Source of the DNA: Candidatus Desulfofervidaceae bacterium
Lineage (GTDB): Bacteria > Desulfobacterota > Desulfofervidia > Desulfofervidales > Desulfofervidaceae
Direction: 5' to 3'
Assembly (NCBI GenBank): GCA_027038965.1
Contig: JALWFG010000005.1
Coordinates: 62,001-126,000, forward strand
Length of the DNA: 64,000 nt
Shown piece after piece: positions 975-43,349 of this stretch. The number at the start of each line of letters is the position of its first letter. Positions within the stretch are counted from its first letter, which is position 1. A program made the position numbers and the translations under genes. A model generated the notes under the pieces. The model was not told the origin of the DNA, did no database searches, and saw only the letters and a list, made by a program, of their open reading frames with translations.

Positions 975-3900
975 ATGAAACTGATTGGGGATCTTATCCT
1001 CCTTCCTGAGTTAAAGACCGTCATTCATTTAAAAGACGCCTTTGGACCAGAGGCCAATGCCCTAAAATCAGAACTTGTTTTTACTAAAGAGGTGGCCCGG
1101 GCATTTCAAGCAATCTATCACAGCCTTAAAGAAGAAAGGGGGAAAGGCTTTTTTATTGAAGGGGGATATGGTAGTGGTAAGTCGCATTTTTTGGCTGCTT
1201 TGTATCTTTACTTATCTCATGCTCAAACTCCGCCTTTGCTGGATATTCCCAAAATTAAAGGCCAATTTTTGGTTATTCCTATTTCTTTGATAGATTATGG
1301 GAGTGAAATTAGACTTCAAGAAATCGTTTTAGAAGCCATTAATAGCGAGCTCCAAAGACAATTTCAAACGAGTTTTGTTCCCTCTGAGTTTTTCGAAGAA
1401 TTAAAAAAAATCATTCCTCAAGAGGAACTTACGGCCTTAGGCAAGCACCTCGGTGTCCCTTCTCAAGAGTTATTTCAGCTTCAATATTGGCCTTATCTAC
1501 ATGAAATCTTGGAAACTCTCCCCCTTTCTTTCCGTCCGGTCATAGAGAGGCGTTCCCTATTTGATCATTTAAAGAACGTCATTTTTGAAAAGGGATTAAG
1601 GGGAGTAGTTATCCTTATTGATGAATTATCTGAATTTTTAAAATCAAAGTCTGCTTCTGGGGGCTTTCAGGAAGATATTCGCTTTTTACAGTTTTTAGGA
1701 GAAATGAGTCAAGAAATACCTCTTTGGATCATTGCTACGCTTCAGGAACGTATAGAGACTACCGGGGATATCCCTCAAGATGCCTTTGCTAAAATAAAGG
1801 ACCGCTACCCTGTTAGACTCATTTTTGCGGGGAGCCATATTGAAGAAATCGTGAGTGAACGTTTGGTTAAAAAACGACCTGGGGCTCGGGGGTACCTCAG
1901 AGAGCTTTATGACAATTTCAAACAAACATTCAAACAGCTTCCCTTTGATTGGGAAACCTGGTATCGGCTTTACCCGATTCATCCCTTAACTATTCAACTT
2001 TTAGATGAATTAAGAGGGCTTTTCTCTCAAGCCAGGGGAGCGGTTGATTTTGTTTATAGTCGACTTAAAGGAGACTCAAAAAGAAATATTCCTCCCCTTC
2101 TTAATGCCCCTGCCCAAACACTTCTTTCCCCAACCGCCATTTTTGACCATTTTTTGGACCGTATTCGAGAAACTCTAGAAACAAATCCTTATTATGAAAA
2201 AGTATACTGTTTCTATGAAAAACTCATTCCTAAATTATTTCCTGACCCAGAAACGAGGCAGGTAGCCCTCGAACTCATAAAACTTTTAATTCTTATGGCT
2301 ATTTCCCCCATTGTCCATCGGCCAAACACAAGGGAACTGGCCTTGGCCATTCTTTATCCCTTTACTGACCTAGACCCGGCCCTCAATTTTCGTTTTGTGC
2401 ATGATATTTTATCATCCCTTGTCCAAGAAGGAGCTTATCTGCACCGGGAACCTCAGGAAGACTTTTTAAAAGATAGATTTTATCTTGATTTAGAAGAAGA
2501 CACCCAATTTATTGTTAAAAAACGCTATGAACAAATTGCCAGTGAAATTAAATCTAAGGATTCAAGAATCTACCATTTTTTATATACTTCGGCCCATAAG
2601 GGGCTGATCCCCTTTTCTGAACTTCATTTTAACCAAAAACAAAAATTAAAAGTCCTGTGGCAAAATACCTACCGTTTAGGGGAAATTCACTTCATTTCTG
2701 TAAATCAGCTTGAAGACACTTTGAGCCAGATCGATTTAAAGGCAAGTGACTTTTATCTTCTCATTTTAAAACATCCCCTTAAAGACGATTTTTCTCCCCC
2801 TTCTATTCCTCCTGGAGTGGCAATTTGGGAACCAGCCGAAGTTCAAGAAGATTTTTTAAAAAAGGCCTATGTATATGCTCAATTATTAGAACGGTATCAA
2901 GATGATCAAACACAGCGTGGTCAGAGGTTTGCCAAATTTATAAAGGAGCTATTTGAGGAAAGTTTGCATCAAGCAGTGCAAGAGCTTACTTGGTCTTATC
3001 TTCAAGGCGCTCTTCACCTCAGTCAAAACGAGACCTTTCAGGTAACGGCCTTAAGCCAGAAGAGCTGGCTGTCTTTTGTGGAAGGCATCGCCGCCTTGAT
3101 TTTGGAAAAAAGACATCCCAAACACCACCTTATTGCTCCTCACTTGTTGCCCCCACCTCTTTCTAGACGACAACTTATAGTAGAAAAATTGATTATTCCT
3201 GGAGAAATTTATCTCAAACGAGGAGAAGGCACCTTAAAGACCCTGATTGATGGACTTTTGCGTCCTTTGGGAATATTAAAGAAGGTTTCAGGGGGATATC
3301 GGCTTTGGCTTGAAGCCAAAAGGTCTCCTATTTTAGAGAAAATTCTTGACCTTTTTGCGAATTCGGTTTCTGTATCTCAAAATGAATTATATGAAATCCT
3401 CCATTCTAGTGATTTTGGCCTTTGTAAAGAGCAATATGAACTCCTGCTTCTGGCCTTAATTCACACCGGAAAACTTGTTCCCTACCATCAAAATAAGCGT
3501 GTCTCTCCCTTTAGGGTTAATTTAGGAAATCTTCATCAGATAACTCATTTAAAACAAATAGAACAACTTGACACCCAAGAAATGACCTTGCTTAAAAACC
3601 TGCCCTTTTTACCTCCATCTTTGCAAGGAAAGGAATTAACTGTAACACACCAAGAAGCCCTCTGGCACTCTTTAAAGGAATTTAAAGAAATGTATTATCC
3701 TAAGGCTATTGCCCTTGAAACCTTTTTAAAGACGCATATTGCCCATCCCCTTTTTACAGAAGGGATTCCGCTTGCCCAAGAAACTATCCAGACAATAAAG
3801 AAGTTATGTGAGGCAGTAAGGTCTTCCTATGCGCCTACCTTGGGGTTAAAACATTTTTGTGAAGCCCTAAAACAAATAAGCTTTATAGACTTTGTTTATG

Positions 3901-5936
3901 CTAGATTCAAGGCCCTTGTAGAATTTTACAGCTTAAAAGAACGCATTCTTTTTATTTATGATTACCTTCATCATCCCGACCTTCAGATTCCTTCTGAGCA
4001 CAAGGAAGTTAAAGAACTTTTTCAAGCGGCAAAGGCCGCCTTATTAAAGGCAAATATCCTTTTTGAAACCCAAAGCCTTCCTCTTATAGAAGAAAAATTT
4101 AACGCCTTTTTTAATGCCTATACTCACGCCTATAAAGAAGCTCACGACCGACTGCTAGCTGGAGAACGTTTTGGTCCTTACCTCTCCTTAAGACAAACAG
4201 ATGCTTATAAATTGATCAGACTTTGGGCAAGTATCCCTGTTCTCCCTGCCAGGACATATTTGGATTCAGTAGAAAGGGAAATCAACCAAACGTTAAGGCA
4301 AATCTGCGAAGAGGACGTGTCTTTACATCTTGCAAAGTCTCCAGTATGCATATGTGGTTGGCATTTGGGAGAAAGACCTTTTTTGCCCCCCTTGGCCAGG
4401 CTTCAAGCCCAGCTTGAGGAAGGAATAGATGCCTGTTTAAATGCCCTCTGTCTTCCTCCCTTAAGACCAAGGCTTGAACAATACATCGTTAGTCTTAGAG
4501 AAATCGGTAAGGAGAAGGAAGCTCAAGAAATGGTCCAAATATTTAATAAGTCTTTAGATTTTGAGACCCTGCTTAAATTAACGCCTTATATTAAAAAGGC
4601 CTTAACTCAAGGGTTGAAAATAGTAGAAAGAAATCTTGACCTTCTAGTAACCCGATTAAAAAGGCAAAGTCTAACCAAAGACCAAATAGAACGCATTTTT
4701 AAAGACTGGTTAGAAGGCAAGGAAGGAGTCAGTTCTGAAACCTATATAAAAATCACTTCTTCTTATTCGGGTATTCCTCCTGCTTTAGAATTGGCAGTAA
4801 GGGAATATGACCCTAGTTTCATTCCCTTAATGAAAAAATGGAAGGAAAACTTTTTTTTACTATTAGTCTTTATCTCCTGGTGCCATTTGCACCATCTTCC
4901 TATAACTTTGGCCGCAGAATTGGCCAAAGTGCCTGAAAGGGAATGGACAGAACGACAAGCAAGTCTTTTAAAATTGGGCCTTCGGTGTCTCCACGAAGAG
5001 GCATTTAAAGAATGGATTGAACACCTTGATCTGGATGAGGACTATCTCTGGCAATACCTTAATCAATATCAATCGGATTTATCTCAAGCCCTTATAGAAG
5101 AAAGAATTTTCCCCTCTATTAAACTTAGAATATTATCAAAATTATTAGAAAAAAAGGCACCTATTCCTATTGAGGCCTTAGATGAAGACCTAAGAACAAT
5201 CTTAAAGGCCTATCAAGGGCTTGAACATCTGATAAATAAATCATTTGATTTTGATACAATTCAAGACTGGGAAAGGTTCTATATAAGGGAATTGAGTAGA
5301 ATGGAAATAAATATAGGTATTTTGGTTGAAAGTTCCTTACCCTCAAAGGCCTATCAAAAGCTGATTAAAAGGCTTTTGGCCTGGCGTAAAGGGCTCGAGC
5401 AGTCATTTAATAGCTTTTATAAAACAAAAAAACGCCTTTCAGTCCCGCTTCCCTCAAAGGGGACAGCTATTTTATTTGATGGCTTAAGATGGGACTTATG
5501 GGAAGATATTAAGAGCATCTTTTTAAAATTAGGGTATAAGCCCCAAAAGGAAGGAGCTTATTGGGCCCAATCTCCCACAGATACCTTCACTCAGCTTTAT
5601 ACTCTGGGCCTTGATACCTACTTTGAGAACATCGCTCCTAACTTGCATATTATCAAGAAAGGAAATCTAAGAATTTTTAAAATTGACGTCATTGATAGTT
5701 ACATTCATAAAACCCATCTTTATCCTCTTTCATTAAAACAGGAAGTTATTCCCATAATAGAAAAAACTGTGATATCTATAACCAAGGGCACCAAAAAGAT
5801 ATTTACTTTTTCTGACCATGGTTTTAAAATGGATTTGCGAAATGCAATTATGCCTTCTTATAAAAGGCCTCTTTACAAACACGGAGAGGTTTCTCCAGAA
5901 GAGGTCATTGTCCCGTGGGCATTTTGGGCAAGATAA
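975..5936 (+). CDS. BrxC/PglY-like ATPase fused to a C-terminal PglZ-like domain
   Basis: This is a 1653-residue protein. Residues 1-450 form a large P-loop ATPase like those of the BREX/Pgl ATPases (DUF6079/PglY/BrxC type): Walker A GGYGSGKS at 63-70 and Walker B VVILIDE at 211-217. A long helical middle, with a winged-helix-like stretch in the second quarter, leads to a C-terminal segment (about 1490-1653) that matches the alkaline-phosphatase-fold PglZ domain. Visible there are LFDGLRWD (1500-1507, metal Asp1502), a Thr-rich nucleophile region SPTDTFT (1533-1539), D1574 and H1578, SDHGF (1613-1617) and a final HGEVSPEEVIVP (from His1636). In known BREX systems the ATPase and PglZ are separate proteins, so the fusion is notable. 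The start ATG lacks a clear ribosome site. No methyltransferase (PglX) lies in the window. Function (phage defence or other) is inferred from the domain families. Confidence 0.7.
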   Translation: MKLIGDLILLPELKTVIHLKDAFGPEANALKSELVFTKEVARAFQAIYHSLKEERGKGFFIEGGYGSGKSHFLAALYLYLSHAQTPPLLDIPKIKGQFLVIPISLIDYGSEIRLQEIVLEAINSELQRQFQTSFVPSEFFEELKKIIPQEELTALGKHLGVPSQELFQLQYWPYLHEILETLPLSFRPVIERRSLFDHLKNVIFEKGLRGVVILIDELSEFLKSKSASGGFQEDIRFLQFLGEMSQEIPLWIIATLQERIETTGDIPQDAFAKIKDRYPVRLIFAGSHIEEIVSERLVKKRPGARGYLRELYDNFKQTFKQLPFDWETWYRLYPIHPLTIQLLDELRGLFSQARGAVDFVYSRLKGDSKRNIPPLLNAPAQTLLSPTAIFDHFLDRIRETLETNPYYEKVYCFYEKLIPKLFPDPETRQVALELIKLLILMAISPIVHRPNTRELALAILYPFTDLDPALNFRFVHDILSSLVQEGAYLHREPQEDFLKDRFYLDLEEDTQFIVKKRYEQIASEIKSKDSRIYHFLYTSAHKGLIPFSELHFNQKQKLKVLWQNTYRLGEIHFISVNQLEDTLSQIDLKASDFYLLILKHPLKDDFSPPSIPPGVAIWEPAEVQEDFLKKAYVYAQLLERYQDDQTQRGQRFAKFIKELFEESLHQAVQELTWSYLQGALHLSQNETFQVTALSQKSWLSFVEGIAALILEKRHPKHHLIAPHLLPPPLSRRQLIVEKLIIPGEIYLKRGEGTLKTLIDGLLRPLGILKKVSGGYRLWLEAKRSPILEKILDLFANSVSVSQNELYEILHSSDFGLCKEQYELLLLALIHTGKLVPYHQNKRVSPFRVNLGNLHQITHLKQIEQLDTQEMTLLKNLPFLPPSLQGKELTVTHQEALWHSLKEFKEMYYPKAIALETFLKTHIAHPLFTEGIPLAQETIQTIKKLCEAVRSSYAPTLGLKHFCEALKQISFIDFVYARFKALVEFYSLKERILFIYDYLHHPDLQIPSEHKEVKELFQAAKAALLKANILFETQSLPLIEEKFNAFFNAYTHAYKEAHDRLLAGERFGPYLSLRQTDAYKLIRLWASIPVLPARTYLDSVEREINQTLRQICEEDVSLHLAKSPVCICGWHLGERPFLPPLARLQAQLEEGIDACLNALCLPPLRPRLEQYIVSLREIGKEKEAQEMVQIFNKSLDFETLLKLTPYIKKALTQGLKIVERNLDLLVTRLKRQSLTKDQIERIFKDWLEGKEGVSSETYIKITSSYSGIPPALELAVREYDPSFIPLMKKWKENFFLLLVFISWCHLHHLPITLAAELAKVPEREWTERQASLLKLGLRCLHEEAFKEWIEHLDLDEDYLWQYLNQYQSDLSQALIEERIFPSIKLRILSKLLEKKAPIPIEALDEDLRTILKAYQGLEHLINKSFDFDTIQDWERFYIRELSRMEINIGILVESSLPSKAYQKLIKRLLAWRKGLEQSFNSFYKTKKRLSVPLPSKGTAILFDGLRWDLWEDIKSIFLKLGYKPQKEGAYWAQSPTDTFTQLYTLGLDTYFENIAPNLHIIKKGNLRIFKIDVIDSYIHKTHLYPLSLKQEVIPIIEKTVISITKGTKKIFTFSDHGFKMDLRNAIMPSYKRPLYKHGEVSPEEVIVPWAFWAR

Positions 5937-11646: not shown

Positions 11647-12924
<1,278 letters not shown>

Positions 12925-12926
12925 AA

Positions 12927-13619
12927 ATGAAATTAACTGAAACAGCCGAAGACATTTTGGAAGCCATATACATTCTTGATAAGGTAAAAAAGGTAGTGCG
13001 TGTAAAGGACATTGCAAAGCAGTTAAATACCAAAATGGCTTCGGTTGTGGTTACTCTCAAATCGCTAGCTCAAAAGGGGCTTGTAGAACACGAACACTAT
13101 GGTTATGTAGAGCTTACTCCTGAGGGTAAAAAGATTGCTAAAAACATTCATGAACGTCACCAATTACTTTTTAAATTTTTTAACGAGACTTTGGGACTTT
13201 CGTCCGAAGTTGCTGAAAGGGATGCTTGCCGATTAGAACATTATCTTTCTAAAGAGGGGCTAGAACGTATCGTACGATTTATTGAATTTGTAGAAAGTTG
13301 TCCTGAAGGAACGCCTACTTGGCTTACGAACTTCTCTTATTTTCTTGAATATGGAACTTACCCTGAAAGCTGCTTAAAGAAGAAAATAGAACTGAAACCC
13401 GTATCAGAACTTGTGCCTGGAGATAAAGGAGAAATCGTTAAAATCGGGGGGAAGATACCAGAAAAGCAGGAACTATTCAAAAAAGGTTTCATCCCAGGGA
13501 CACAAATAATCATTCTCAAAAAGACCCCTAAAAATATGGCAATCAAAATCGGCAATGTTGAATTTAATCTTGATTTAAGAACTGCCAATCGGATTTACAT
13601 TAGTTCGTTAAAAGACTGA
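12927..13619 (+). CDS. DtxR-family iron-dependent transcriptional regulator
   Basis: The 230-residue protein has an N-terminal winged helix (about 1-65, with KDIAKQLNTKMASVVVTLKSLAQKGLVEHE as recognition region), a metal-binding dimerisation domain and a C-terminal SH3-like FeoA domain (about 155-228). Metal ligands expected in the family are seen as H78 and the cluster C101-x-x-E104-H105. The cysteine fits the iron-type (DtxR/IdeR) rather than the manganese-type (MntR) site. It probably represses metal uptake when iron is plentiful, but no target gene is adjacent. I prefer ATG 12927 over an in-frame TTG at 12906 that lies inside ahcY. The last 25 bases overlap the convergent nucleotidase gene. 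Confidence 0.85.
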   Translation: MKLTETAEDILEAIYILDKVKKVVRVKDIAKQLNTKMASVVVTLKSLAQKGLVEHEHYGYVELTPEGKKIAKNIHERHQLLFKFFNETLGLSSEVAERDACRLEHYLSKEGLERIVRFIEFVESCPEGTPTWLTNFSYFLEYGTYPESCLKKKIELKPVSELVPGDKGEIVKIGGKIPEKQELFKKGFIPGTQIIILKKTPKNMAIKIGNVEFNLDLRTANRIYISSLKD

Positions 13620-14373: not shown

Positions 14374-15405
14374 TTATGAAATTTGGTTAGAATTCAAAAG
14401 ACAAAAAGGCACTGCTCCCAGCATCTTTTCCAATTTGCTCAAATCTGCTTGCTTTCCTAATACAGCAATAGAATCACCAGCACTTAAGGGCGTTTCCAAG
14501 GAAGGATTAAAGATGGTTTCGTTATTTTTCCTTCTTAAAACGATGGTAAGTACATTGGCTTCTTTTTTTAAATCAGAGATCGTAAATGGCTTCTCCAAAT
14601 ATCCAACAATCATCTCCCTTATTTGCAGCTCCCCATGTCCTGAAAGGGTAAGTTCCATAAAATCCGTGGTTAAAGGATGAGTAATGCTTTCAGCCAATCG
14701 TTTAGCCCCAATCTCGTAAGAGGAAATTACCCTATCTGCCCCAGCCTGTTTCAACCGCTTAGCTGCCTTGGTATCTGTGGCTCGAGCCAAAATATAAAGA
14801 TTAGGATTCAAATCTCTTGCTACTAAGACAATGTACACATTATCGGCATCTGACCCCACTGCTGCAATTAAACCCTTAGCCCTCTTAATCCCTGCCTTTA
14901 AAAGTATCTCTTCCTCTGTAGCCTCTCCATAAACGTGAAGGATTTCCTTTTGCTCTAATTTTTGGGTAATATTGTAATTATTCTCAACAACAACTACTGT
15001 AATATTATTCCTTTGAAGATTTTTATAAACTTGGCTACCAATCCTCCCAAAACCACATAAGATGTAGTGTTCTGAGACCTTTTGAAGTCTGGTTTCCATA
15101 ACTCTTCTCCCCAATATTTTCCTTAAATGTCCTTCTATAAAAAGGCTACCTACCCTGCCTATTATATAAATAACAAAGCTCAAACCAAAAAACACCAAAA
15201 AAACCGAAAAAAGTTCTCCTTGAGGGGTTTTGCTCACTGGGGTCGCAGGAGTAAGAGTAACGATTGTGGCATAAATGGCATCCAAAAAACTCATATGTTC
15301 AAAATAAACATATCCTAATGCTCCACCAATAATAATGAGAAAAGATAAAAGGATAGGAGCCACAACAGATTTAAAAGATATAATTCCATCTACGCTTTTG
15401 CGCAT
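14374..15405 (-). CDS. RCK-domain (TrkA-N) ion channel with an atypical pore
   Basis: The protein has 343 residues in a MthK-like layout: an outer helix (about 10-33), a pore region, an inner helix (about 66-89), then a Rossmann RCK domain with GFGRIGSQVYKNL and VVVVENN, and a C-terminal TrkA-C domain. This family forms ligand-gated potassium channels in the inner membrane. The unusual point is the pore: where a TxGYGD selectivity filter is expected, the sequence reads TLTPATPVSKTPQGE, lacking GYG, and the DNA at 15215-15260 confirms this. It may conduct other ions or be a regulator only. The gene starts directly at the tilS stop, so the two form one transcription unit. Confidence 0.8.
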   Translation of the reverse strand: MRKSVDGIISFKSVVAPILLSFLIIIGGALGYVYFEHMSFLDAIYATIVTLTPATPVSKTPQGELFSVFLVFFGLSFVIYIIGRVGSLFIEGHLRKILGRRVMETRLQKVSEHYILCGFGRIGSQVYKNLQRNNITVVVVENNYNITQKLEQKEILHVYGEATEEEILLKAGIKRAKGLIAAVGSDADNVYIVLVARDLNPNLYILARATDTKAAKRLKQAGADRVISSYEIGAKRLAESITHPLTTDFMELTLSGHGELQIREMIVGYLEKPFTISDLKKEANVLTIVLRRKNNETIFNPSLETPLSAGDSIAVLGKQADLSKLEKMLGAVPFCLLNSNQIS

Positions 15406-16794
15406 CTAAAATTGCCCTTGTATTCTTCGGATAAGCAAATATCTTTCTGTCTCAGGCCCAGGAGTAACCTTCGCATCTGCCCTTAAATCCGCTATCGAAA
15501 TTACCTTACCTTCACTTAAAAATATCGGAATTTTTTTTCTAAGAGAATACGGAATTTTTTGGTCAATGAAAAAATCTTTTATCTTTTTAGTGATTCCTGG
15601 CAAGGGTGAAAATCTATCACCTGGTTGATAAGGCCGTATCTCCAAGGGAAAGCAGACTTTACTTGAATCTAACAAGATATCATGAGGCGTTAAAGCCATT
15701 TTTCCCAAATCCTTCAGAGATAACTCTTTGATTTCAAGGGATAAATTCAGCTCTTTTATTTTTACCTTGCCTGGTTTATCTACTACATAATGATAAGAAG
15801 GACCTTCAGTAAGGACTACTTCTTGAGTTATATAAAGCCATTTATTTTCCTTATAGGCCTTCCAGTTATCAGGGAGAATAAGAGTTTTATGAGGCCCCCC
15901 TGGAAATGCCAACTCAAGCAGGGCATTTAAATGTCTTTTAGAGGACCTAAAGGCAGTCTTTTGTAAAACGCGGTGCAGAAGCCTCCTTTTAATCGCCCTG
16001 TCCATAAAGGCCAAACGCTCCAAATCCAATTTTAGGCCTAAATCTGTTGAAAGAACACACTTGGCCTCAATCTCATCTACTTGTTTCTCTATCCAAGCAT
16101 TATCCTCACGCCAAATTCGAGCCATTTCAAGCAAGTTTTCCTTAAAGGCTGGATTAAATTTCAATAAAAGGGGAATTAATTTCATCCTGATGCGGTTGCG
16201 TAAAAATCTTTGATCATAATTGGTTTCATCTATTACATATTCTATCTTTTCTTTTTTGAGAAAGGCAAGAATTTCGTGTTTAAAAAAGTTCAATAAAGGT
16301 CGAATGTAAGGGCCTCTTTTGACTTCCATTCCCCCAAATCCTGCCCAAGCCGTTCCCCTCAAAAATCTCCTTAATATTTCCTCCACTTGATCGTCAGCCG
16401 TATGGCCTAAAGCAATCCTGTTTGCCCCTGTTTGTTTTAATATTTTCTCAAAAAAGGCATATCGCAATTCCCTTGCAGCCATTTCTAAAGAGAGATGCTC
16501 TTGGCGAGCATAATCCCTTGCCTGGCCATGTCCAATATAAAAAGGTAAGCCAAGTTTAAAGGCAAGATTCCGAGTAAACCGAGCATCTCTTAAGGATGAT
16601 ACACCTCTTATTCCATGTTCATAGTGAATTACTCCAAGTTTTATCTTAAGCCTTTGTCTTAATCTCATCAGGATATGCAAGAGGGCAACCGAATCCGGTC
16701 CTCCAGATACGGCTACCAAAACGAAATCTCCAGTTGAAATCAGTTCATATTGTTTTATGTTCTTGAAGACTCTGCCAACAAGGTCTTGGTTCAT
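15406..16794 (-). CDS. tilS: tRNA(Ile)-lysidine synthase
   Basis: TilS attaches lysine to C34 of the CAU-anticodon tRNA(Ile), changing it to read AUA. The 462-residue protein has the N-type ATP pyrophosphatase loop SGGPDS at residues 30-35, followed by the family segments LGVIHYEHGIRG, LGHTADDQVEEILRRFLRGTAWAGFGGM and RFLRNRIRMKLIPLL, then a C-terminal TilS substrate-binding domain (EIRPYQPGDRF, IKDFFIDQKIP). ATG 16794 is taken; an in-frame TTG six codons upstream is less likely. The RCK channel gene follows with no gap. Confidence 0.95.
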   Translation of the reverse strand: MNQDLVGRVFKNIKQYELISTGDFVLVAVSGGPDSVALLHILMRLRQRLKIKLGVIHYEHGIRGVSSLRDARFTRNLAFKLGLPFYIGHGQARDYARQEHLSLEMAARELRYAFFEKILKQTGANRIALGHTADDQVEEILRRFLRGTAWAGFGGMEVKRGPYIRPLLNFFKHEILAFLKKEKIEYVIDETNYDQRFLRNRIRMKLIPLLLKFNPAFKENLLEMARIWREDNAWIEKQVDEIEAKCVLSTDLGLKLDLERLAFMDRAIKRRLLHRVLQKTAFRSSKRHLNALLELAFPGGPHKTLILPDNWKAYKENKWLYITQEVVLTEGPSYHYVVDKPGKVKIKELNLSLEIKELSLKDLGKMALTPHDILLDSSKVCFPLEIRPYQPGDRFSPLPGITKKIKDFFIDQKIPYSLRKKIPIFLSEGKVISIADLRADAKVTPGPETERYLLIRRIQGQF

Positions 16795-16987
16795 GTTTTT
16801 AATATAAACCAAAAAACAAAATTAAACAGCCCTTAACGGCCCAAAAGCATAGGCTTCTTGCCAGTCATCCATGCCCACAATTTTAATTTTTTGAACCCTA
16901 GTTACTAACCGCTAGCTACTGCACGTTAAAATAAGCAGATGAGGAAACAGGTTATTTTTGACTTAAAACTTATTTAGATTTTTCATC

Positions 16988-21966: not shown

Positions 21967-22332
21967 TTGCCCTTTATAACAAATATTGAAGGCGTTATGT
22001 TTAAAGAATGGCTTCAACTTTACTGGCAAGAAATTGTTAATGTATTTACTACAATTGGAAAGTCTGATTTTGATCTTCTCCCCTTGTTCAAAAACCCTTT
22101 GTTTGACATCGGATTAATCGCATTGTTCTTGGTCCTCCTTTTCCTCCGTCTTTACCGAATATTAAGCCTATTTTTGGCAGGGATGGTCTTCACCTGTGCT
22201 TGGTCGTATTTTGTTGGAAAATACGGTAACCTAGAGAGTGTTCCCCTTGTTCATTGGTGGTATTTAGTGGGAATCGGAATTATACTGATAGGTGCCCTTA
22301 TTTATTATTGGCTCATAATTCTTGGAGAATAG
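21967..22332 (+). CDS. Small membrane protein of unknown function
   Basis: The 121-residue protein has two or three membrane helices (about 41-58, 64-80 and 97-118) and no motif I recognise. The start is ambiguous: TTG at 21967 has GGAG 6 bases upstream, while ATG at 21997 would give a 111-residue form. It sits between the AsmA-like gene and the first GH57 gene and its stop lies 13 bases before that gene, so it is probably co-transcribed with the GH57 pair. The N-terminal half before the first helix (FKEWLQLYWQEIVNVF) is amphipathic. Confidence 0.65.
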   Translation: MPFITNIEGVMFKEWLQLYWQEIVNVFTTIGKSDFDLLPLFKNPLFDIGLIALFLVLLFLRLYRILSLFLAGMVFTCAWSYFVGKYGNLESVPLVHWWYLVGIGIILIGALIYYWLIILGE

Positions 22333-22345
22333 AAAAGGAACTTTA

Positions 22346-24724
22346 ATGGGGCCTAAATTTATTTGCATTCATGGTCATTTTTATCAACCTCCTAGGGAAG
22401 ACCCCTGGCTGGAAGAAATAGAATTTCAGAAAAGTGCCCTTCCCTTTCATGATTGGAACGAACGGATTACCGCCGAGTGCTATTTTCCTAATGCCTATGC
22501 CCGAAGAATAGATGGTAAAGGTCAAATTATAAAGATTGTAAATAACTATGAAAAAATCAGTTTTAACTTTGGACCTACTCTACTCTTGTGGCTTAGAAAA
22601 CACAAATTAGAAGTCTTGCATAAAATTATTGAAGCCGATCAAAAAAGTTGTCTTGCCTATCATGGACATGGAAATGCCATTGCTCAAGTCTATAATCATA
22701 TCATCATGCCTCTGGCCAATTACAGGGATAAAGTTACCCAAACAAAGTGGGGAATTGCTGCCTTCAAATACTTTTTTGGCCGTTATCCCGAAGGAATGTG
22801 GTTGGCAGAAACTGCTGTTGACAATGAAACCTTAAAGGTGCTTGCCCAGCACAAAATTAAATTTACCATCCTTGCTCCACGTCAGGCAGCCGCTATTAGA
22901 AGGATAGGAGAAAAGGAATGGCAAGAAGTTGATGAAACCAACCTTGACATCACCATGCCCTATAGGTGCTATCTCAATAGAGAGCACTATATTGATATCT
23001 TCTTTTATCATGGGGCACTTTCTCAAGGAATTGCCTTTGGAGGACTTGTTCAAAACGGGGACCATCTGGCACATCATTTAGAACAAACCTTTGGTGAAAA
23101 TGAGTCTTCCCAAATTTTGTCTGTGGCTACTGATGGAGAAACCTTTGGCCATCATTGGAAGTTTGCAGAAATGGCCTTGGCCTATGTAATTGATTATTTT
23201 TCAGAGCACCCCCAAATTTCTTTCATAAACTTTGGGGCCTACCTGGCCCGTTTTTCTCCAATGTATGAGGTGAAAATCAAAGAAAACACCTCTTGGAGTT
23301 GCGTTCACGGTATTGATCGCTGGCGTGACGATTGTGGTTGCTGCACAGGTGCTCATCCTGGATGGAATCAAAAGTGGCGTAAGCCCTTACGAAATTCCTT
23401 AAACTGGCTTCGAGATCAAATAGATATTCTTTTTGAAAAGGAAGGAAAAAGATTTTTCAAGGACCCTTGGAAGGCCAGAGACGACTACATTGATATAGTC
23501 CTAGACCCTCGTCCGAAAACAAAAGATAACTTTTTGGGCCATCATACCTTAACCTCCCTAAATGAAAATCAACGTATAGATGCTCTTAAATTGCTAGAAA
23601 TGCAATATTATGGCCAGCTTATGTTCACTAGTTGTGGTTGGTTTTTTGATGACATTTCAGGCCTTGAAGCAAGACAAAATCTTCGTTATGCCAGTCGAGT
23701 TATCCAATTGGCCAAAGACTTTGGGCTGGAATTGGAATCTGAATTTGTGAAACGAATCAAAGAGGCAAAAAGTAATATGGCCAAGTATGGAGACGGTGCT
23801 CAAATCTACAATACATTGGTTAAACCTAAACTTTACGACTTGAAACGTCTAGCAGTTCATTTTAGTTTCAGCCATCTTTTTGAAGAGCCTCCTTGTGATA
23901 ATACATTTTATACGGCCAGAATAAAATTGAAAGAGAGGCGAAGTGAAGAGGCAAGCGGCAATCTTTTATTATTTGACCACATGGAAATCAGCCACATTCG
24001 CACTGAAGAGAAACAGGAATTAATAACCATAGTCCTTTTTTTGGGGGCTTTGGACCTATTAGGAACCGCTTTACCTGTCAATCAAAAGGAATTTGGTAAA
24101 ATCCTTTTTTCTCTTTTTAAAAACTTGTCTTTTTATGAGGTCAAAGACAAAATCATCCAAAACTCTCCTTATTATGGAATTCACGATGTTTTCTTTGATA
24201 ACCGGCGTCAGTTGGCCACTTTATTAGTTGAAGAAAAACTTCAGGCCTTAAATAATGCCTATTTGGAATTCTATCAAGAAAATAAAAGTTTAATGTTTGC
24301 CTTGAAAGAATTACATATTCCTTTACCAGAAACGTTCATAGGGATTGCTCGAACAGTTTTGGAAAACATCCTTTATGAGGAATATCGCAAGGAATTAGAA
24401 GGACAACCTAACCAACTCCGAAGGGCCATAAAAGAAACTGAAGAGTTAGGAATCAATATAGATACTACTAGATTAAGTAAACTTTTAGGAGAGTTTATTA
24501 AGGATAAATTGCATCGGTTTTTAGAAACGTTTGATTTAAACCACATTAAAAAAATCAACTCGGCCCTGTCTCTTTGCGGTCAGTTATGTCAAAAGCTTGA
24601 TCTTTGGTCTATCCAAAACCTATTTTGGGATCTTCTTCCTTATATCAAAGGACAATATAAGGATGAAATCCCATCTGAAATTTTGATTCTTGCTCAAATG
24701 TTAAACTTTGGCCTGGAGGATTAA
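22346..24724 (+). CDS. GH57 glycoside hydrolase with DUF3536 region
   Basis: The protein has 792 residues from ATG 22346, which has AAGGAA just upstream (an in-frame TTG at 22322 is less likely). The N-terminal part is a GH57 barrel: HGHFYQPPREDPW, the catalytic nucleophile segment GMWLAETA (Glu155) and the acid/base segment VATDGETFGHHW (Asp263). The later SWSCVHGIDRWRDDCGC and DISGLEARQNLRYASR segments are typical of the long GH57/DUF3536 proteins. These act on alpha-glucans, most likely storage glycogen, in the cytoplasm; no signal peptide is present. The stop is directly followed by the ATG of the second GH57 gene, so both should work on the same polymer. Exact activity (amylase, branching, transferase) cannot be told. 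Confidence 0.85.
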   Translation: MGPKFICIHGHFYQPPREDPWLEEIEFQKSALPFHDWNERITAECYFPNAYARRIDGKGQIIKIVNNYEKISFNFGPTLLLWLRKHKLEVLHKIIEADQKSCLAYHGHGNAIAQVYNHIIMPLANYRDKVTQTKWGIAAFKYFFGRYPEGMWLAETAVDNETLKVLAQHKIKFTILAPRQAAAIRRIGEKEWQEVDETNLDITMPYRCYLNREHYIDIFFYHGALSQGIAFGGLVQNGDHLAHHLEQTFGENESSQILSVATDGETFGHHWKFAEMALAYVIDYFSEHPQISFINFGAYLARFSPMYEVKIKENTSWSCVHGIDRWRDDCGCCTGAHPGWNQKWRKPLRNSLNWLRDQIDILFEKEGKRFFKDPWKARDDYIDIVLDPRPKTKDNFLGHHTLTSLNENQRIDALKLLEMQYYGQLMFTSCGWFFDDISGLEARQNLRYASRVIQLAKDFGLELESEFVKRIKEAKSNMAKYGDGAQIYNTLVKPKLYDLKRLAVHFSFSHLFEEPPCDNTFYTARIKLKERRSEEASGNLLLFDHMEISHIRTEEKQELITIVLFLGALDLLGTALPVNQKEFGKILFSLFKNLSFYEVKDKIIQNSPYYGIHDVFFDNRRQLATLLVEEKLQALNNAYLEFYQENKSLMFALKELHIPLPETFIGIARTVLENILYEEYRKELEGQPNQLRRAIKETEELGINIDTTRLSKLLGEFIKDKLHRFLETFDLNHIKKINSALSLCGQLCQKLDLWSIQNLFWDLLPYIKGQYKDEIPSEILILAQMLNFGLED

Positions 24725-26806
24725 ATGAAGTTTTATCTCCCCTTTGCCGTACATAATCACCAACCCGTAGGCAATTTTGATAAGATATTTAAAAAGGCAA
24801 CTCGGCAATGCTATCATCCTTTTCTAGAAATAGTTCAAAATTACCCCTTTTTTAGATTTAGCCTCCACATCTCTGGTCCTCTCTGGGAGTGGTTTGAAAA
24901 AAACGACCCTAAACTGATAGATATAATTGGAAAGATGGTTGATAAAAATCAAATAGAACTCATGTTAGGGGGATTTTATGAGCCCCTATTGCCGTTTATT
25001 CCTGAAGAAGACGCAAAGCAACAAGTTATTTATATGAGGGATTATCTCCAAAACAGGTTTGGCGTCCAACCCAAAGGGATATGGCTTACAGAAAGGGTCT
25101 GGACCCCTGAGGTTCCCAAATTGCTTGCTAATTTGGGAATTGAATATACCCTCTTAGACGATGCCCATTTCTTCAATGCCGGTTTAAAGGAACAAGAAAT
25201 CCACGGATATTTTATCACAGAAAAGGATGGATATCCGCTTTTTGTTTTTCCAATTAGCAAAAGGTTGCGGTATCTCATTCCTTTTCAACCACCCGAGGCC
25301 GTAGAAGAATACTTTCATAATTTTTTCCGACAAACTAGAGGACACACTTTAACCTATGGAGATGATGGGGAGAAATTTGGACTTTGGCCCAAAACAAGGG
25401 AGTGGGTATATAAAAAGGGATGGCTGAAGCAGTTTCTTAACTTTTTAGGGCAAAGACAAGATAGGATTCAAGTCCTGCCTCTAGGAGAGTATATAAGAAA
25501 ATTCCCACCTAGAAAAAGGATTTATCTCCCTCCTGCCAGTTATGAAGAGATGATGGAATGGACCTTAGCCCCAGAAGATAGCTTAATTTACGAAAACCTT
25601 AAAAGGGAATTTCAAAAAAGGCAGGATTGGGAGAAAATTCGTCCTTTTTTTAGAGGCGGCACCTGGGATAATTTTCTTTGCAAATATGAAGAAACAAATC
25701 TCATGCATAAAAAGATGATCTATTTTAGCCATAAACTGAGGCAATGGGGTCAAAGTGACAGAAAGGATTTTTCGTTTATTAAGGCCAAGCGGCATCTGTG
25801 GCAATCTCAATGTAACTGTGCTTATTGGCATGGAATTTTTGGAGGACTTTATTTAGGACATCTAAGAGAGGCCATATACAGGCATCTTATTGCCGTTCAA
25901 AAATATTTACCTCAAAGGTCGTGGACTGAAAAGACAGATTATGATTGCGATGGCTATCCAGAATGTCTTGTCCACACACCTATTTTCAATGCCTACTTTA
26001 AACCTAATTATGGAGGTAGCCTCATCGAGCTTGATCTAGTAAGAGAAGAAATAAATTTAACCAATGTTCTTACCCGACGCCAAGAAGCCTATCATAAAAA
26101 AATCATAGATGTAATCACCAAAGGAGAAGCTCAATCAGAAGGCGTTAAAACTATCCACGAACAGTTTAAGCTAAAAGAACCCAATTTGGATAAATATCTT
26201 ATTTATGACTGGTATCAACGTTATAGCTTTCTAGACCACTTTTGGGATGATGAGATAAATTTGGAAAGGTTCTACAGGGCAAACTATTATGATCGAGGCA
26301 ATTTTACAATAGAACCTTATAATTTACTCAGTTTCTCTCAACGCAACCAAAAGGTTGTCCTTGAACTTGAAAGGCAAGGACTCCTTTTTGAGTCAGAACC
26401 TCTGACGATTAAGAAAACATATATTTTAGCCCCACCGGCCCTTGAATTAAACTACACCTTTTATCCTGAATCCTCGGCTACAGTCAATTTTGGCACTGAG
26501 ATAAACTTCTTTTTGCCCAACTGGCATCTCATTGTAGGCCATAAATCATATTCTCTTTTTAAAAAGAAAGAAATCTTGGGAATAAGCTCCTTTTGTCTGG
26601 AGATCAAAGATAAAGCAATAAGGATTGAAATTAGCTCCCGTGAGGCCTTTAATCTTTGGAGTTTCCCAATTTACTCTGTGAACATTTCAGAGGATGGTGC
26701 TGAAAAGACATATCAAGGAACTTGTTTAGTGGTCTTTAAAAAGGTTTTTTTTAAAAAAAGAAATCCAGCTTCCTTGTCTTGGAAACTAACACTAGGTAAG
26801 CGGTGA
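24725..26806 (+). CDS. GH57 4-alpha-glucanotransferase / alpha-amylase
   Basis: The 693-residue protein has the GH57 conserved regions: HNHQPVGNFD near the start, GGFYEPLLPFIPEED, the nucleophile segment GIWLTERVWTPEV with Glu123, and the acid/base segment YGDDGEKFGLWP with Asp214. Both positions coincide with the catalytic residues of the Thermococcus litoralis 4-alpha-glucanotransferase (E123, D214). A C-terminal beta-rich domain (about 420-690, with RANYYDRGNFT) matches the glucanotransferase C-terminal domain. It transfers or hydrolyses alpha-1,4-glucan segments in the cytoplasm. The ATG lies immediately after the stop of the previous GH57 gene. A probable promoter for pyrB begins right after its stop. 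Confidence 0.88.
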   Translation: MKFYLPFAVHNHQPVGNFDKIFKKATRQCYHPFLEIVQNYPFFRFSLHISGPLWEWFEKNDPKLIDIIGKMVDKNQIELMLGGFYEPLLPFIPEEDAKQQVIYMRDYLQNRFGVQPKGIWLTERVWTPEVPKLLANLGIEYTLLDDAHFFNAGLKEQEIHGYFITEKDGYPLFVFPISKRLRYLIPFQPPEAVEEYFHNFFRQTRGHTLTYGDDGEKFGLWPKTREWVYKKGWLKQFLNFLGQRQDRIQVLPLGEYIRKFPPRKRIYLPPASYEEMMEWTLAPEDSLIYENLKREFQKRQDWEKIRPFFRGGTWDNFLCKYEETNLMHKKMIYFSHKLRQWGQSDRKDFSFIKAKRHLWQSQCNCAYWHGIFGGLYLGHLREAIYRHLIAVQKYLPQRSWTEKTDYDCDGYPECLVHTPIFNAYFKPNYGGSLIELDLVREEINLTNVLTRRQEAYHKKIIDVITKGEAQSEGVKTIHEQFKLKEPNLDKYLIYDWYQRYSFLDHFWDDEINLERFYRANYYDRGNFTIEPYNLLSFSQRNQKVVLELERQGLLFESEPLTIKKTYILAPPALELNYTFYPESSATVNFGTEINFFLPNWHLIVGHKSYSLFKKKEILGISSFCLEIKDKAIRIEISSREAFNLWSFPIYSVNISEDGAEKTYQGTCLVVFKKVFFKKRNPASLSWKLTLGKR

Positions 26807-39440: not shown

Positions 39441-42400
39441 TTATTCTTCAATCCAAAACTGAGTTTTATTAGGTAAATATACGGGTTTTTGATTCATTTC
39501 TACTACTTGTCCTGTAGAAAGTTGAATATAAGTTTTTGTCTGCGACCCTACCTGTTTGGTGGTTATACTCTCGCCGATAGCTGGAGCGCCTTGACCAATA
39601 TAGACCCCGGCCTTTATTTGATTGTTTTGAAAGGCAGTATTCAGTAAAATACTAGGTTGTTTATAAGGAATGCCAGCTTTATAATAGAGTGAATATAGAT
39701 AACTGTCTCCCCCTAAACCGCAAACATCACTGTTAGGTTTAAAGGTAGTAAACATCGCTATTTGGCCTACTACAGCAGGCTTAGAAATATCCCTCTCCGT
39801 AGGGGCATTTGTGTCAAGGTCCCTCTTCCAACCATCATAATTTGTAGTGATGTAGTTTACGCAGTCCTCCCATCCCGTATGACCATTACAATTATTTACA
39901 GTCACATTTTTAACCTCTGTCACTACTAAATTCCCACAACCGCAAATAAGATCGCCACTTGCATCCTGTCTTTTTGCAGGTTGATTATCCGAACAAAGAT
40001 TTACCTGCCCTCCTTCACACATACAGATATAATCGGCCATATCCGCAGAAACAGTAATATTTGTTACATCTTTTATGTTAGTTACCTCGCCTGCACTTGG
40101 TGAATACCCCCATTCCCCATTACTATAACCCCAGGCAGTATCTTTAATTCCATATAAATACTGTTCTGCGGCATCTGTCTTATCGCTCTGACCAAAAAAT
40201 TTACCTGTGCCAAAAAAGCACCATAAATTACCTGCATCATCAAACGCAAGTTCAGGGGGAGCCGTAATAGGAGCACCGGCATCCACTAGCGTAGTTACTT
40301 GCCAATTGGTAATCATTCCTTGGCCGTTAACTACAGGAGGTTGCTCGAAAGTCAAAATTCGAAGCATTTCTCCTGTCAAGCTATTGCCTTGTTTCTCAAC
40401 TGTTCCACAATAAATGGCATCTACACTATAGTCATTTTCAGGGTCTACCGCCACACAGTCGCCTACATAGGTGTTATTACCAAGAGAAAGTTTCCCAACT
40501 AAACTTCCATCTCTTAAGTTAATTACATAAAGATACCCAGTATTAGGTGGAACATCGCCATTATAGTCTGTAGGGCCTGAACCCAAAACTACATACCAGT
40601 TACCATTAGTACTAGCATCCCCAATTCTTACTATAGCTGGATAGGAAGTGGTAAAATTTAGATCTGGGTCAGAAAACTCCCATAGCAATGAAGGGGCCTC
40701 TGGATCAGTAATATCTAAAGCAAATACAGAGGAATACCCCACCCTTTTCCCATTGACAGTTGGGGCATCAGAGGGGGGATTAGGACTGCCACCCAATCTT
40801 AACTCTCCAATCAAAATAGTGCGCCAGCTTTCTGCCGATTTGGCCTCATTAGGAGCACCATTAATACTTGCATCTATTAAGAGTGGCCTTTGATCTACAA
40901 AATAGATATGACAATAATTGGGATAAGCAAGATATTTGAGATAAGGCAATACATTCATGGGGATAAACGACCAAATTTCAGTTCCAGGTTGTTTACTTTC
41001 AGGATCTTCCAGGATCGCTTTAAGTCCAGGATGACTTTCACCTGGTACAGTTTCTTTAATCTTACCTAAGTAAAAACAATGGAGCATACCATCATTTGCC
41101 CCTACTAAAAGATAATCATTTCGCTTAATAGGATTAGCTGCATCTGGATCATAAACATGCTCTTTAACAAAGTCTGTATAGGTCGTATCTCCATAGCGAA
41201 TATCATAGGTGTTAAGAGCAAAATGTGACAAAATTCTAGGTGTGGAATAAATAATATCTCCAAGCTTCCAGACATGTTGAGTACCATTTATGGTTAGAAG
41301 TCTATTCCGGTGTCCTTTGGAGCAGGAACTATAGGTGCAACTACCATTGTCGCTATCTATACAAATATCCTTATCTGCTCCTCTGACATAATCAATAATG
41401 TGAGTTGCGTCCGTACTATCACAGGCCCTTAAGAAAGGGGTTAAAGTAGACGCATTAGTATCTTTAAAGTCAACCAATGAAGTGCCATTAACCGAAGTAT
41501 AGATATTTCTATCCTCAGGATCCATAGCCCACAACTTTTCCCCTGCATTCCAGATTGTGGCAAAATCGGCCAGTTCTTTTGTTTCGTCAGGAGAACAGGG
41601 GAATTCTACATTACCATATCTGTCAGAAGAATAAAGGTGTCCTACTGTTTTGGTGCCATCATTGTAGAATTTAACCACTTTATCTTTGTCTAGTTCTAAT
41701 TGGGCCTTTACATTTGTGCCACTAGCATCATTTGATGAATCGGTATCTTCTCGAATATTTCCCGAAGAGTCCACCCATAACCCCCTCAACTCCCCTACCC
41801 ATAGAAGCTCTTCATTATTCTCCCCCGTCAAAGAAGGCAAGAAATAGGCCTGAGCCAAACAACCGCTACCTCGAGTAGAGGTAGAAAGCACAGAAACCGC
41901 CGTTCCAGAAGAGGCCCTTTTGAGGATATCTGCAATGGCACTCAAAAGGGCGTTTTCCAATTGATAGCCGTTTTGGGCTTCATAATAGGTATCGGGCAAA
42001 TTATCTCCATTTTCATCCCATTCAGTTTGTAAATCTGGCTTGTTATTACCATTTTTATCTACAAACCCACCATATTTTGCTGTTTTTTGAAGCAGATCTT
42101 TGCCTACTGGAGATTCATCAAAGGCAAATATAGTATAAGTAGTTAAATTTTGGGTACCCTGCAAGTCGGCCCTTAGGTCATTTATGTGGGCATAATAAGC
42201 CGTTCCTTCCAGATAATATGTCCCATCCATAGAATTGGCGCTTACATTCCATTGGCTAGCATAGCCCTCATTAGAGGCAATGCTGTCCATATAATCTTTA
42301 ATGTTAAAGCCATTTGGGTCAGATACAGGCGAACCCCAATACCCACCAGGAATATTTTTGTCTTTTGTTGATTCTCCATCAGTCAAAATAATCACAAAAT

Positions 42401-43349
42401 TTTTCTGACACCAATGCTCAATTGGGTCATGAGCAGCATAGTTTTGGCCACAATTGTAAGCAGATTTTTCAGCCTCAAAGTACCTAATGGTTTCATAGAA
42501 AGATTCGGCCAAAGGTGTCCAAGTAGAGGGATCGGTATTTTGAATTTGAGTAACAATGTTTATGTCTTCTCCCGGACCTGAAATCCAATCAGCCACTTGG
42601 CCCCCATCCCTACTACCACCTCCATCCTCAAACTTATTTCCGGTATTAAAAAACATTAGCCCAAATCTGGCTTGATCCCACATCTTTTGGACAATACCCG
42701 TTTGTTCCTCTGAGACCTTGATCTTTATTTGGTAGTAATGGTCATAATAGTAAAAGTTATTCCCTACCCAATAACCAACATAAAATCTTCCCCAAAAAAC
42801 AAGGAAATCCTGTGTTCCTGAATAGGGTGTATAAGGCCCCACATCCGTATACCGCTTAGCATAGTCCCTATCAGGATTGTCTGCTCCAAATAAATATCTT
42901 GTTTGTTGGACATTCCCTCTGGGAACCTGTTTGCCGCCCACTAATACTTTCCTCACCACATCTACCCGACGCATAGTAAGCCAATTTAAAAAGTTGCCGT
43001 CCCAGTCCCCAGAGTCACTTTCATAAAAATAATTACCTCCGGTGTTATAAGCATATTTCTTGGTAGGGTCAAAATAGCCATAATAGGTAGTAGAAGGGTC
43101 AAAGCTCTGATCTGGATTTGAGGGATCATTTCCAGTTCCTGCCGTTTTATAAGCAAATTCATACATACTGCCTGAATTGTCCAGAACAATTAATATATTA
43201 GGAGGAACGGCTTGGGTAATAAATGGAGGTGCCGCACAATAATCAGCCATAGCTGCAAAAACAGCATTATTTGCTCCATCTTTAATTGTTGCTAACAAAA
43301 GAAGGCTCAAAATTATCAGATAAAAAGAAAAAGAATATTTTAACTTCAT
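39441..43349 (-). CDS. PilY1/PilC-like type IV pilus tip adhesin
   Basis: The 1302-residue protein begins with a signal peptide (about 1-33). A von Willebrand A-type domain follows, with PPNILIVLDNSGSMYEFAY (MIDAS DxSxS) near residue 50 and VIILTDGEST near 322. The C-terminal half is a PilY1 propeller with GANDGMLHCF, the DNGSC/DVNDN-like acidic loops and TAPPELAFDD-type blades, then a Cys-rich tail. PilY1 proteins sit at type IV pilus tips, help pilus extension and bind surfaces or calcium. Aromatic and Gly/Tyr-rich repeats fill the region between MIDAS and propeller. No pilin gene is adjacent in the window; only the small exported protein upstream, overlapping by four bases, is coupled to it. 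Confidence 0.9.
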   Translation of the reverse strand: MKLKYSFSFYLIILSLLLLATIKDGANNAVFAAMADYCAAPPFITQAVPPNILIVLDNSGSMYEFAYKTAGTGNDPSNPDQSFDPSTTYYGYFDPTKKYAYNTGGNYFYESDSGDWDGNFLNWLTMRRVDVVRKVLVGGKQVPRGNVQQTRYLFGADNPDRDYAKRYTDVGPYTPYSGTQDFLVFWGRFYVGYWVGNNFYYYDHYYQIKIKVSEEQTGIVQKMWDQARFGLMFFNTGNKFEDGGGSRDGGQVADWISGPGEDINIVTQIQNTDPSTWTPLAESFYETIRYFEAEKSAYNCGQNYAAHDPIEHWCQKNFVIILTDGESTKDKNIPGGYWGSPVSDPNGFNIKDYMDSIASNEGYASQWNVSANSMDGTYYLEGTAYYAHINDLRADLQGTQNLTTYTIFAFDESPVGKDLLQKTAKYGGFVDKNGNNKPDLQTEWDENGDNLPDTYYEAQNGYQLENALLSAIADILKRASSGTAVSVLSTSTRGSGCLAQAYFLPSLTGENNEELLWVGELRGLWVDSSGNIREDTDSSNDASGTNVKAQLELDKDKVVKFYNDGTKTVGHLYSSDRYGNVEFPCSPDETKELADFATIWNAGEKLWAMDPEDRNIYTSVNGTSLVDFKDTNASTLTPFLRACDSTDATHIIDYVRGADKDICIDSDNGSCTYSSCSKGHRNRLLTINGTQHVWKLGDIIYSTPRILSHFALNTYDIRYGDTTYTDFVKEHVYDPDAANPIKRNDYLLVGANDGMLHCFYLGKIKETVPGESHPGLKAILEDPESKQPGTEIWSFIPMNVLPYLKYLAYPNYCHIYFVDQRPLLIDASINGAPNEAKSAESWRTILIGELRLGGSPNPPSDAPTVNGKRVGYSSVFALDITDPEAPSLLWEFSDPDLNFTTSYPAIVRIGDASTNGNWYVVLGSGPTDYNGDVPPNTGYLYVINLRDGSLVGKLSLGNNTYVGDCVAVDPENDYSVDAIYCGTVEKQGNSLTGEMLRILTFEQPPVVNGQGMITNWQVTTLVDAGAPITAPPELAFDDAGNLWCFFGTGKFFGQSDKTDAAEQYLYGIKDTAWGYSNGEWGYSPSAGEVTNIKDVTNITVSADMADYICMCEGGQVNLCSDNQPAKRQDASGDLICGCGNLVVTEVKNVTVNNCNGHTGWEDCVNYITTNYDGWKRDLDTNAPTERDISKPAVVGQIAMFTTFKPNSDVCGLGGDSYLYSLYYKAGIPYKQPSILLNTAFQNNQIKAGVYIGQGAPAIGESITTKQVGSQTKTYIQLSTGQVVEMNQKPVYLPNKTQFWIEE

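Follow-up and report, generated by a model that had tools for sequence, protein, structure and literature searches.

A bacterial RCK channel homologue without the potassium selectivity filter, a loss that occurred at least twice

The Gly-Tyr-Gly (GYG) motif is generally regarded as the invariant core of the potassium channel superfamily, and the stacked backbone carbonyls of TVGYG are needed for K+ selectivity. RCK rings, in turn, gate by ligand-driven movement. The window analyzed here, a 64,000-nucleotide stretch of a Candidatus Desulfofervidaceae bacterium contig, encodes an RCK channel homologue in which GYG appears to be missing, and this raises the question of whether the loss is real, whether it is unique, and what kind of protein it leaves behind. 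We found that the homologue without a K+ filter is real, that it is not unique, and that it evolved at least twice. The original prediction placed the altered segment at 15215-15260 without naming a strand. This was right to within a few bases, as TIVTLTPATPVSKTPQGE comprises residues 47 to 64 of the minus-strand open reading frame 14374-15405, that is, window positions 15214-15267 (Table 1).

Table 1. Features of the channel gene and its upstream neighbour, in window coordinates.
Feature	Position	Strand	Evidence
GYG-less 2TM-RCK channel homologue, 343 aa	14374..15405	-	Open reading frame and translation; Pfam Ion_trans_2, TrkA_N, TrkA_C
TM1, residues 11-36	15298..15375	-	Helix in AlphaFold2 model
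Pore helix, residues 40-51	15253..15288	-	Helix in AlphaFold2 model
Filter loop TLTPATPVSKTPQG, shortened and substituted, residues 50-63	15217..15258	-	Alignment of 128 relatives; reading frames
TM2, residues 61-91, conserved Gly74 kept	15133..15225	-	AlphaFold2 model; alignment
RCK_N (TrkA_N), residues 114-228, GFGRIG nucleotide-binding motif	14722..15066	-	Pfam, 117.5 bits
RCK_C (TrkA_C), residues 275-330, diverged	14416..14583	-	Pfam, 33.1 bits
tilS, directly upstream of the channel gene	15406..16812	-	Pfam; junction

The gene has an intact frame of 343 codons whose start codon, ATG, follows the TAG stop of tilS without a gap, as read at the junction. Its GC content by codon position (0.46/0.35/0.33) and its codon use resemble those of the neighbouring genes. 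Besides the two RCK matches, Pfam recognized Ion_trans_2 at 23.9 bits (cut-off, 22.5). The AlphaFold2 model, built from an alignment of 46 chosen rows, had a mean pLDDT of 89.6 and contained the three helices of Table 1 followed by an RCK fold; its top match in a Foldseek search of the PDB was full-length MthK (E value, 2.1e-23; TM score, 0.67). A second model, of a GYG-less relative described below, was built from 38 chosen rows, and in both high-confidence models the pore helix and two-helix fold matched full-length MthK. By sequence comparison, GsuK and MthK are the nearest solved relatives. The predicted identity as an RCK channel homologue is thus borne out by Pfam and by fold: like these RCK-gated prokaryotic K+ channels, the window protein joins a 2TM/pore-loop unit to RCK, but it lacks GYG and the Ca2+ residues of MthK and has one RCK domain where GsuK has two.

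We examined the filter against relatives gathered by their similarity to the window protein or a profile of GYG-less proteins, in which 151 matching loci gave 128 distinct aligned sequences; because of how the set was gathered, its counts are not population frequencies. The alignment was one of the checks that the original prediction had proposed, and 123 of the 128 carry G-[Y/F]-x at the filter, in the form exemplified by TLTTVGFGEVHPLTPAG from a family relative. The five without it are the window protein (L002), L068, L076, L106 and L133, all with the same shortening. Compared with the family form TLTTVG[YF]xExxPLxxxG, the TLT-PATPVSK-TPQG that follows the pore helix in the window protein is shorter by exactly three residues; the expected loss of three to four residues including GYG, with the flanking T-P-x-G retained, was accurate. 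Besides being shorter, the loop carries substitutions: TTV is lost too, and only one of six family-conserved loop positions is kept. For the window gene, neither its row in this alignment nor any of its three coding-strand frames yielded G-Y/F-G around the filter. GYG was lost in the window protein through an in-frame three-residue shortening together with substitution. The closing filter position is Gly in 75 of the 123 relatives with G-[Y/F] and another residue in 48 (S in 22, K in 7, Q in 5, E in 4, R in 3, A in 3, T in 2, M in 2), so that variation in the outer filter is tolerated in this family even among members that retain GY or GF. Judged from these residues, the outer filter may be relaxed throughout this Desulfobacterota-rich RCK family, whose members may not be strictly K+ selective.

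To the four GYG-less relatives in the alignment, four found afterwards were added. The nine distinct carriers are the window's genome, G136, G609, G629, G646, G777, G818, G993 and G1020; L068 lies in G646, an uncultured Desulfohalobiaceae bacterium. The eight other loops read TLTTVAPFELSASG, TLTTVAPFELSDGG, TLTTVAPFQLSEGG, TLTTISPFTLSYSG, TLTTISPFTLSDNG, ALTTVAGTSLSESG, TLTTVAPFHLTEGG and TLTTVAPFDLHDEG. Seven of these eight contain TLTT[VI][AS]PF, and in eight of all nine GYG-less loops TLTxx is followed by a small residue and Pro, the exception being L173 (ALTTVAGT). Further genomes were searched with a profile built from the membrane portions of GYG-less proteins. All members except the window protein scored at least 107 bits and the best normal channel 97; lower-scoring GYG-less proteins would escape this search. 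In samples that overlap one another, hits came from 2 of 395 genomes of the window's phylum (its own counted), 3 of 389 of G136's class, 2 of 242 of G136's order, 3 of 36 of G136's family, 5 of 247 of G646's order and 1 of 6 of the window's own order. Another draw from the phylum, consisting mostly of genomes already in the first (G1151 has the coordinates of G136), gave 2 of 394 and no new member.

These carriers bear on the possibility that a sequencing or assembly error in what is, for the window protein, a single assembly removed GYG. We give this next to no credence, and a frameshift or base-call error was rejected: the frame is intact, the loop is both substituted and shortened, and GYG stands in no other frame, so the gap is not a sequencing slip. 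The original prediction had named two things that would speak against a genuinely altered filter, homologues with a normal filter and reads betraying a sequencing deletion. The former exist in abundance, as counted above; a sequencing deletion fits poorly with the substituted loop, the normal frame and codon-position GC, and the same three-residue shortening in eight other genomes.

Next, we asked whether the shortened loops share one origin, using trees that omitted the loop columns. The first contained 68 of 127 distinct sequences, namely those of interest and every second one of the others, in three blocks; for the second, the long-branch rows L028, L030, L032 and L073 were removed and six rows added. 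The eight other GYG-less proteins group as a single clade (100/100) nested among normal channels; the clade spans at least two orders, and its new loop is conserved from one genus to another. The clade's nearest normal channels (L078, L080, L082, L084 and L086) have the filters TVGFGEV, TIGFGEV, TIGYGEV or TVGFQEV. The window protein has the same three-residue-shorter, GYG-less loop but groups outside this clade, joining normal channels from its own family (99/97). Forcing all nine together cost 64 log-likelihood units, and the AU test rejected a single common origin, and with it common descent of the window protein with the clade (p-AU = 0.000234; p = 0.000942 with five short rows). Together with the separate branching, this rejection means that MthK-type RCK channels have lost the filter on at least two occasions. 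The end branch of the window protein is long (1.46), which makes its exact place less sure; long-branch pull alone would not separate it from the clade. Because the loss is independent in separate relatives, it is probably a true change of function and not an error.

We then compared constraint on the altered pores. For clade pairs from G136, G609 and G629, the pore helix and filter (26 codons) had dN values of 0.055 to 0.085 against dS values of 0.76 to 1.58, the RCK part had dN 0.073 to 0.091 and dS 0.84 to 1.07, and the whole membrane part had dN 0.073 to 0.177 and dS 0.70 to 1.08; dS is near saturation here and was not computable for most pairs with L068. The low dN relative to dS in the pore helix and filter indicates that the altered loop is maintained, and the clade's new loop is under purifying selection. 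In two of the three pairs the membrane part evolves faster than RCK (dN 0.156 to 0.177 versus 0.077 to 0.091), and against L068 the pore segment is not more strongly conserved than RCK (identity, 0.58 to 0.65 versus 0.70).

No close relative of the window copy was found among the relatives collected, and its conservation was read from family-conserved positions, with the GsuK-like L148 left out of the canonical set. RCK_N keeps 50 of 57 such positions (canonical mean, 0.88) and RCK_C 11 of 25 (canonical mean, 0.84); TM1 keeps 4 of 4, the pore helix 4 of 6 and TM2 6 of 11. The RCK domain had been called intact, which holds for its N-terminal part and fails for its C-terminal part. The diverged RCK_C and loop, the long branch, the lack of a close relative and the presence of the gene in one of the six genomes of its order would fit a window copy that is decaying after duplication and has lost its function. 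We consider this highly improbable, given the intact frame directly behind tilS, the normal codon-position GC and the canonical conservation of RCK_N.

Another reading is that the protein is a silent or modifying subunit acting in mixed tetramers with a normal paralogue. In the window's genome the only further Ion_trans_2 protein is L001 (G000:C5:165519-166526), which has a normal TVGFGE filter; it lies about 88 kb from the window gene and is 42% identical to the window protein. G993 and G1020 also hold a normal MthK-type paralogue, whose filter is GYM or GFL, along with further RCK proteins, and G609 has a GsuK-like channel with GFGD. Against mixed tetramers stand the low identity of the paralogues, only about 42%, and G136, a 99% complete genome in which the GYG-less protein is the sole Ion_trans_2 protein and so stands alone. 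No other such protein was seen in G629 or G646 either, genomes that are incomplete or of unstated completeness. The GYG-less protein therefore occurs both with and without a normal partner, and we regard the mixed-tetramer role as improbable. Gene neighbourhoods were also compared. Beyond the gene itself and internal frames, three clade loci (7.9 to 15 kb) and the L068 contig share no neighbour, and the remaining cross-matches between clade loci were response-regulator-like frames at 30 to 34%; a conserved operon or partner gene was rejected for these four loci. Beside tilS, no relative of the window gene was found in the five other genomes of its order, where the loci are short.

The RCK domain offers clues to a ligand. 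Activation by ADP and NAD+ has been reported for GsuK (PMC3510474). The second RCK domain of GsuK has GHGRIG at the place of GFGRIG in the window protein, which also keeps the acidic residue that follows, Glu141. Of the MthK residues compared, D184 and E212 are named in PDB entry titles, and E210 we take to be a Ca2+-site residue too. They align with A182, R208 and T210 (for D184, E210 and E212, respectively), and because of these replacements Ca2+ gating of the MthK type appears unlikely.

Precedents for channels that have lost the signature suggest what such a pore might do. In CNG channel filters, Tyr-Gly is lost and Glu and prolines follow. Changes in TxGYG are reported to make the eukaryotic CNG channels non-selective (PMC4607889); these are 6TM proteins with a cyclic-nucleotide-binding domain, which Pfam did not find in the window protein. 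The same source describes NirBac proteins as tetrameric, non-selective Kir-type prokaryotic channels with a replaced filter. As in the window protein, TxGYG is lost there from an otherwise conserved K+ channel homologue, and NirBac and the GYG-less RCK proteins alike show more than one kind of replacement loop. However, NirBac has a Kir-type cytoplasmic domain where the window protein has TrkA_N and TrkA_C, and its conduction is reported as measured, whereas the window protein is known here from sequence and model. CASTOR, an RCK channel without TVGYG, is described as conducting Ca2+ (PMC6697748). It and its fellow plant nuclear channels POLLUX and DMI1 resemble the window protein in combining RCK gating with the absence of TVGYG, but the CASTOR/POLLUX filter given there, AD[S/A]GNHA, is unlike TLTPATPVSK, the architecture differs, and Pfam assigned the window protein to no such family. 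NaKTs of Tsukamurella paurometabola is reported as a bacterial 2TM channel with a proline-rich non-selective filter, LPMGNGPLSP (PMC5052707). It shares prolines with the window loop but not the shortening, and its subunit is described as small, with no RCK domain mentioned in the available sections, unlike the window protein. Selectivity is not readable from sequence, since TbIRK, also without the signature, is reported to prefer K+ about sevenfold (PMC5429665). The available parts of two reviews (PMC10761061, PMC12332018) held nothing decisive, and no description of a prokaryotic RCK channel without GYG was found in the openly licensed PubMed Central literature.

By analogy, the window protein is best read as the RCK-branch counterpart of the NirBac channels. 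We tentatively favour, at a little short of an even chance, a diverged MthK-type RCK subunit without a K+ filter, predicted to sense a nucleotide and most likely to form a weakly selective cation pore. Four subunits would still assemble around a central pore, and the RCK ring would sense a nucleotide, of the NAD+ or ADP type and not through the MthK Ca2+ site, and gate the pore. With the inner threonine layer alone left beneath a short, Pro-containing loop, K+ selectivity would be gone and the pore would most likely pass cations with little discrimination. This reading is favoured by the retained pore helix, membrane helices and RCK fold, by the conserved RCK_N, by two origins with the same length change and a small residue plus Pro in eight of nine loops, by the selective maintenance of the clade's loop and by G136, where the protein has no Ion_trans_2 partner; the kept GFGRIG and the replaced MthK Ca2+ residues speak for a nucleotide as ligand, and the NirBac, NaKTs and CASTOR precedents are consistent with the reading. 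Counting against it are the poorly conserved loop and RCK_C of the window protein, its long branch, the faster membrane part of the clade, a pore segment no better conserved than RCK against L068 and the K+ preference of TbIRK.

Conduction of other ions and ligand sensing without conduction, the two functions suggested in the original prediction, are the right pair to weigh, and the present data do not settle the choice. The rather unlikely member of the pair is a membrane-anchored RCK sensor that does not conduct, its pore sealed and the nucleotide state relayed to another protein. The contrast between a canonically conserved RCK_N and a filter loop that is not (50/57 versus 1/6), the two prolines within the window loop, and a normal channel in the same genome available for K+ work would suit such a sensor. 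The retained pore helix and TM2 with its conserved glycine, the purifying selection on the clade loop itself, and the lack of a conserved neighbour as possible partner at the four clade loci compared argue against it. If the protein is non-conducting, it would exemplify a channel turned sensor.

A bolder form of the cation-pore reading, which is possible but which we would sooner doubt than accept, is that two independent removals of the K+ filter by the same shortening produced an undescribed filter, TLTxx-[small]-Pro, that is gated by nucleotides reporting redox or energy state and conducts something other than K+ alone. NirBac had already revealed that GYG is replaceable in the Kir branch; in the RCK/MthK branch, the same shortening has removed it on two occasions. 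The normal paralogue, the normal sister clade and the GYG-less clade form a natural series for studying tetrameric pores without selective layers, and for asking if RCK rings in bacteria are able to gate pores other than K+ pores.

Elsewhere in the window, the sole match of a 1,653-aa protein (975-5936) is to the DUF6079 family, whose function is unknown. A DtxR-type iron-dependent repressor with a FeoA domain (12906-13619) directly follows an S-adenosylhomocysteine hydrolase, and two adjoining GH57-family proteins (22322-26806) carry DUF3536 in one and 4-alpha-glucanotransferase domains in the other. A 1,302-aa protein with a PilY1 beta-propeller domain (39441-43349) is a candidate type IV pilus tip protein.
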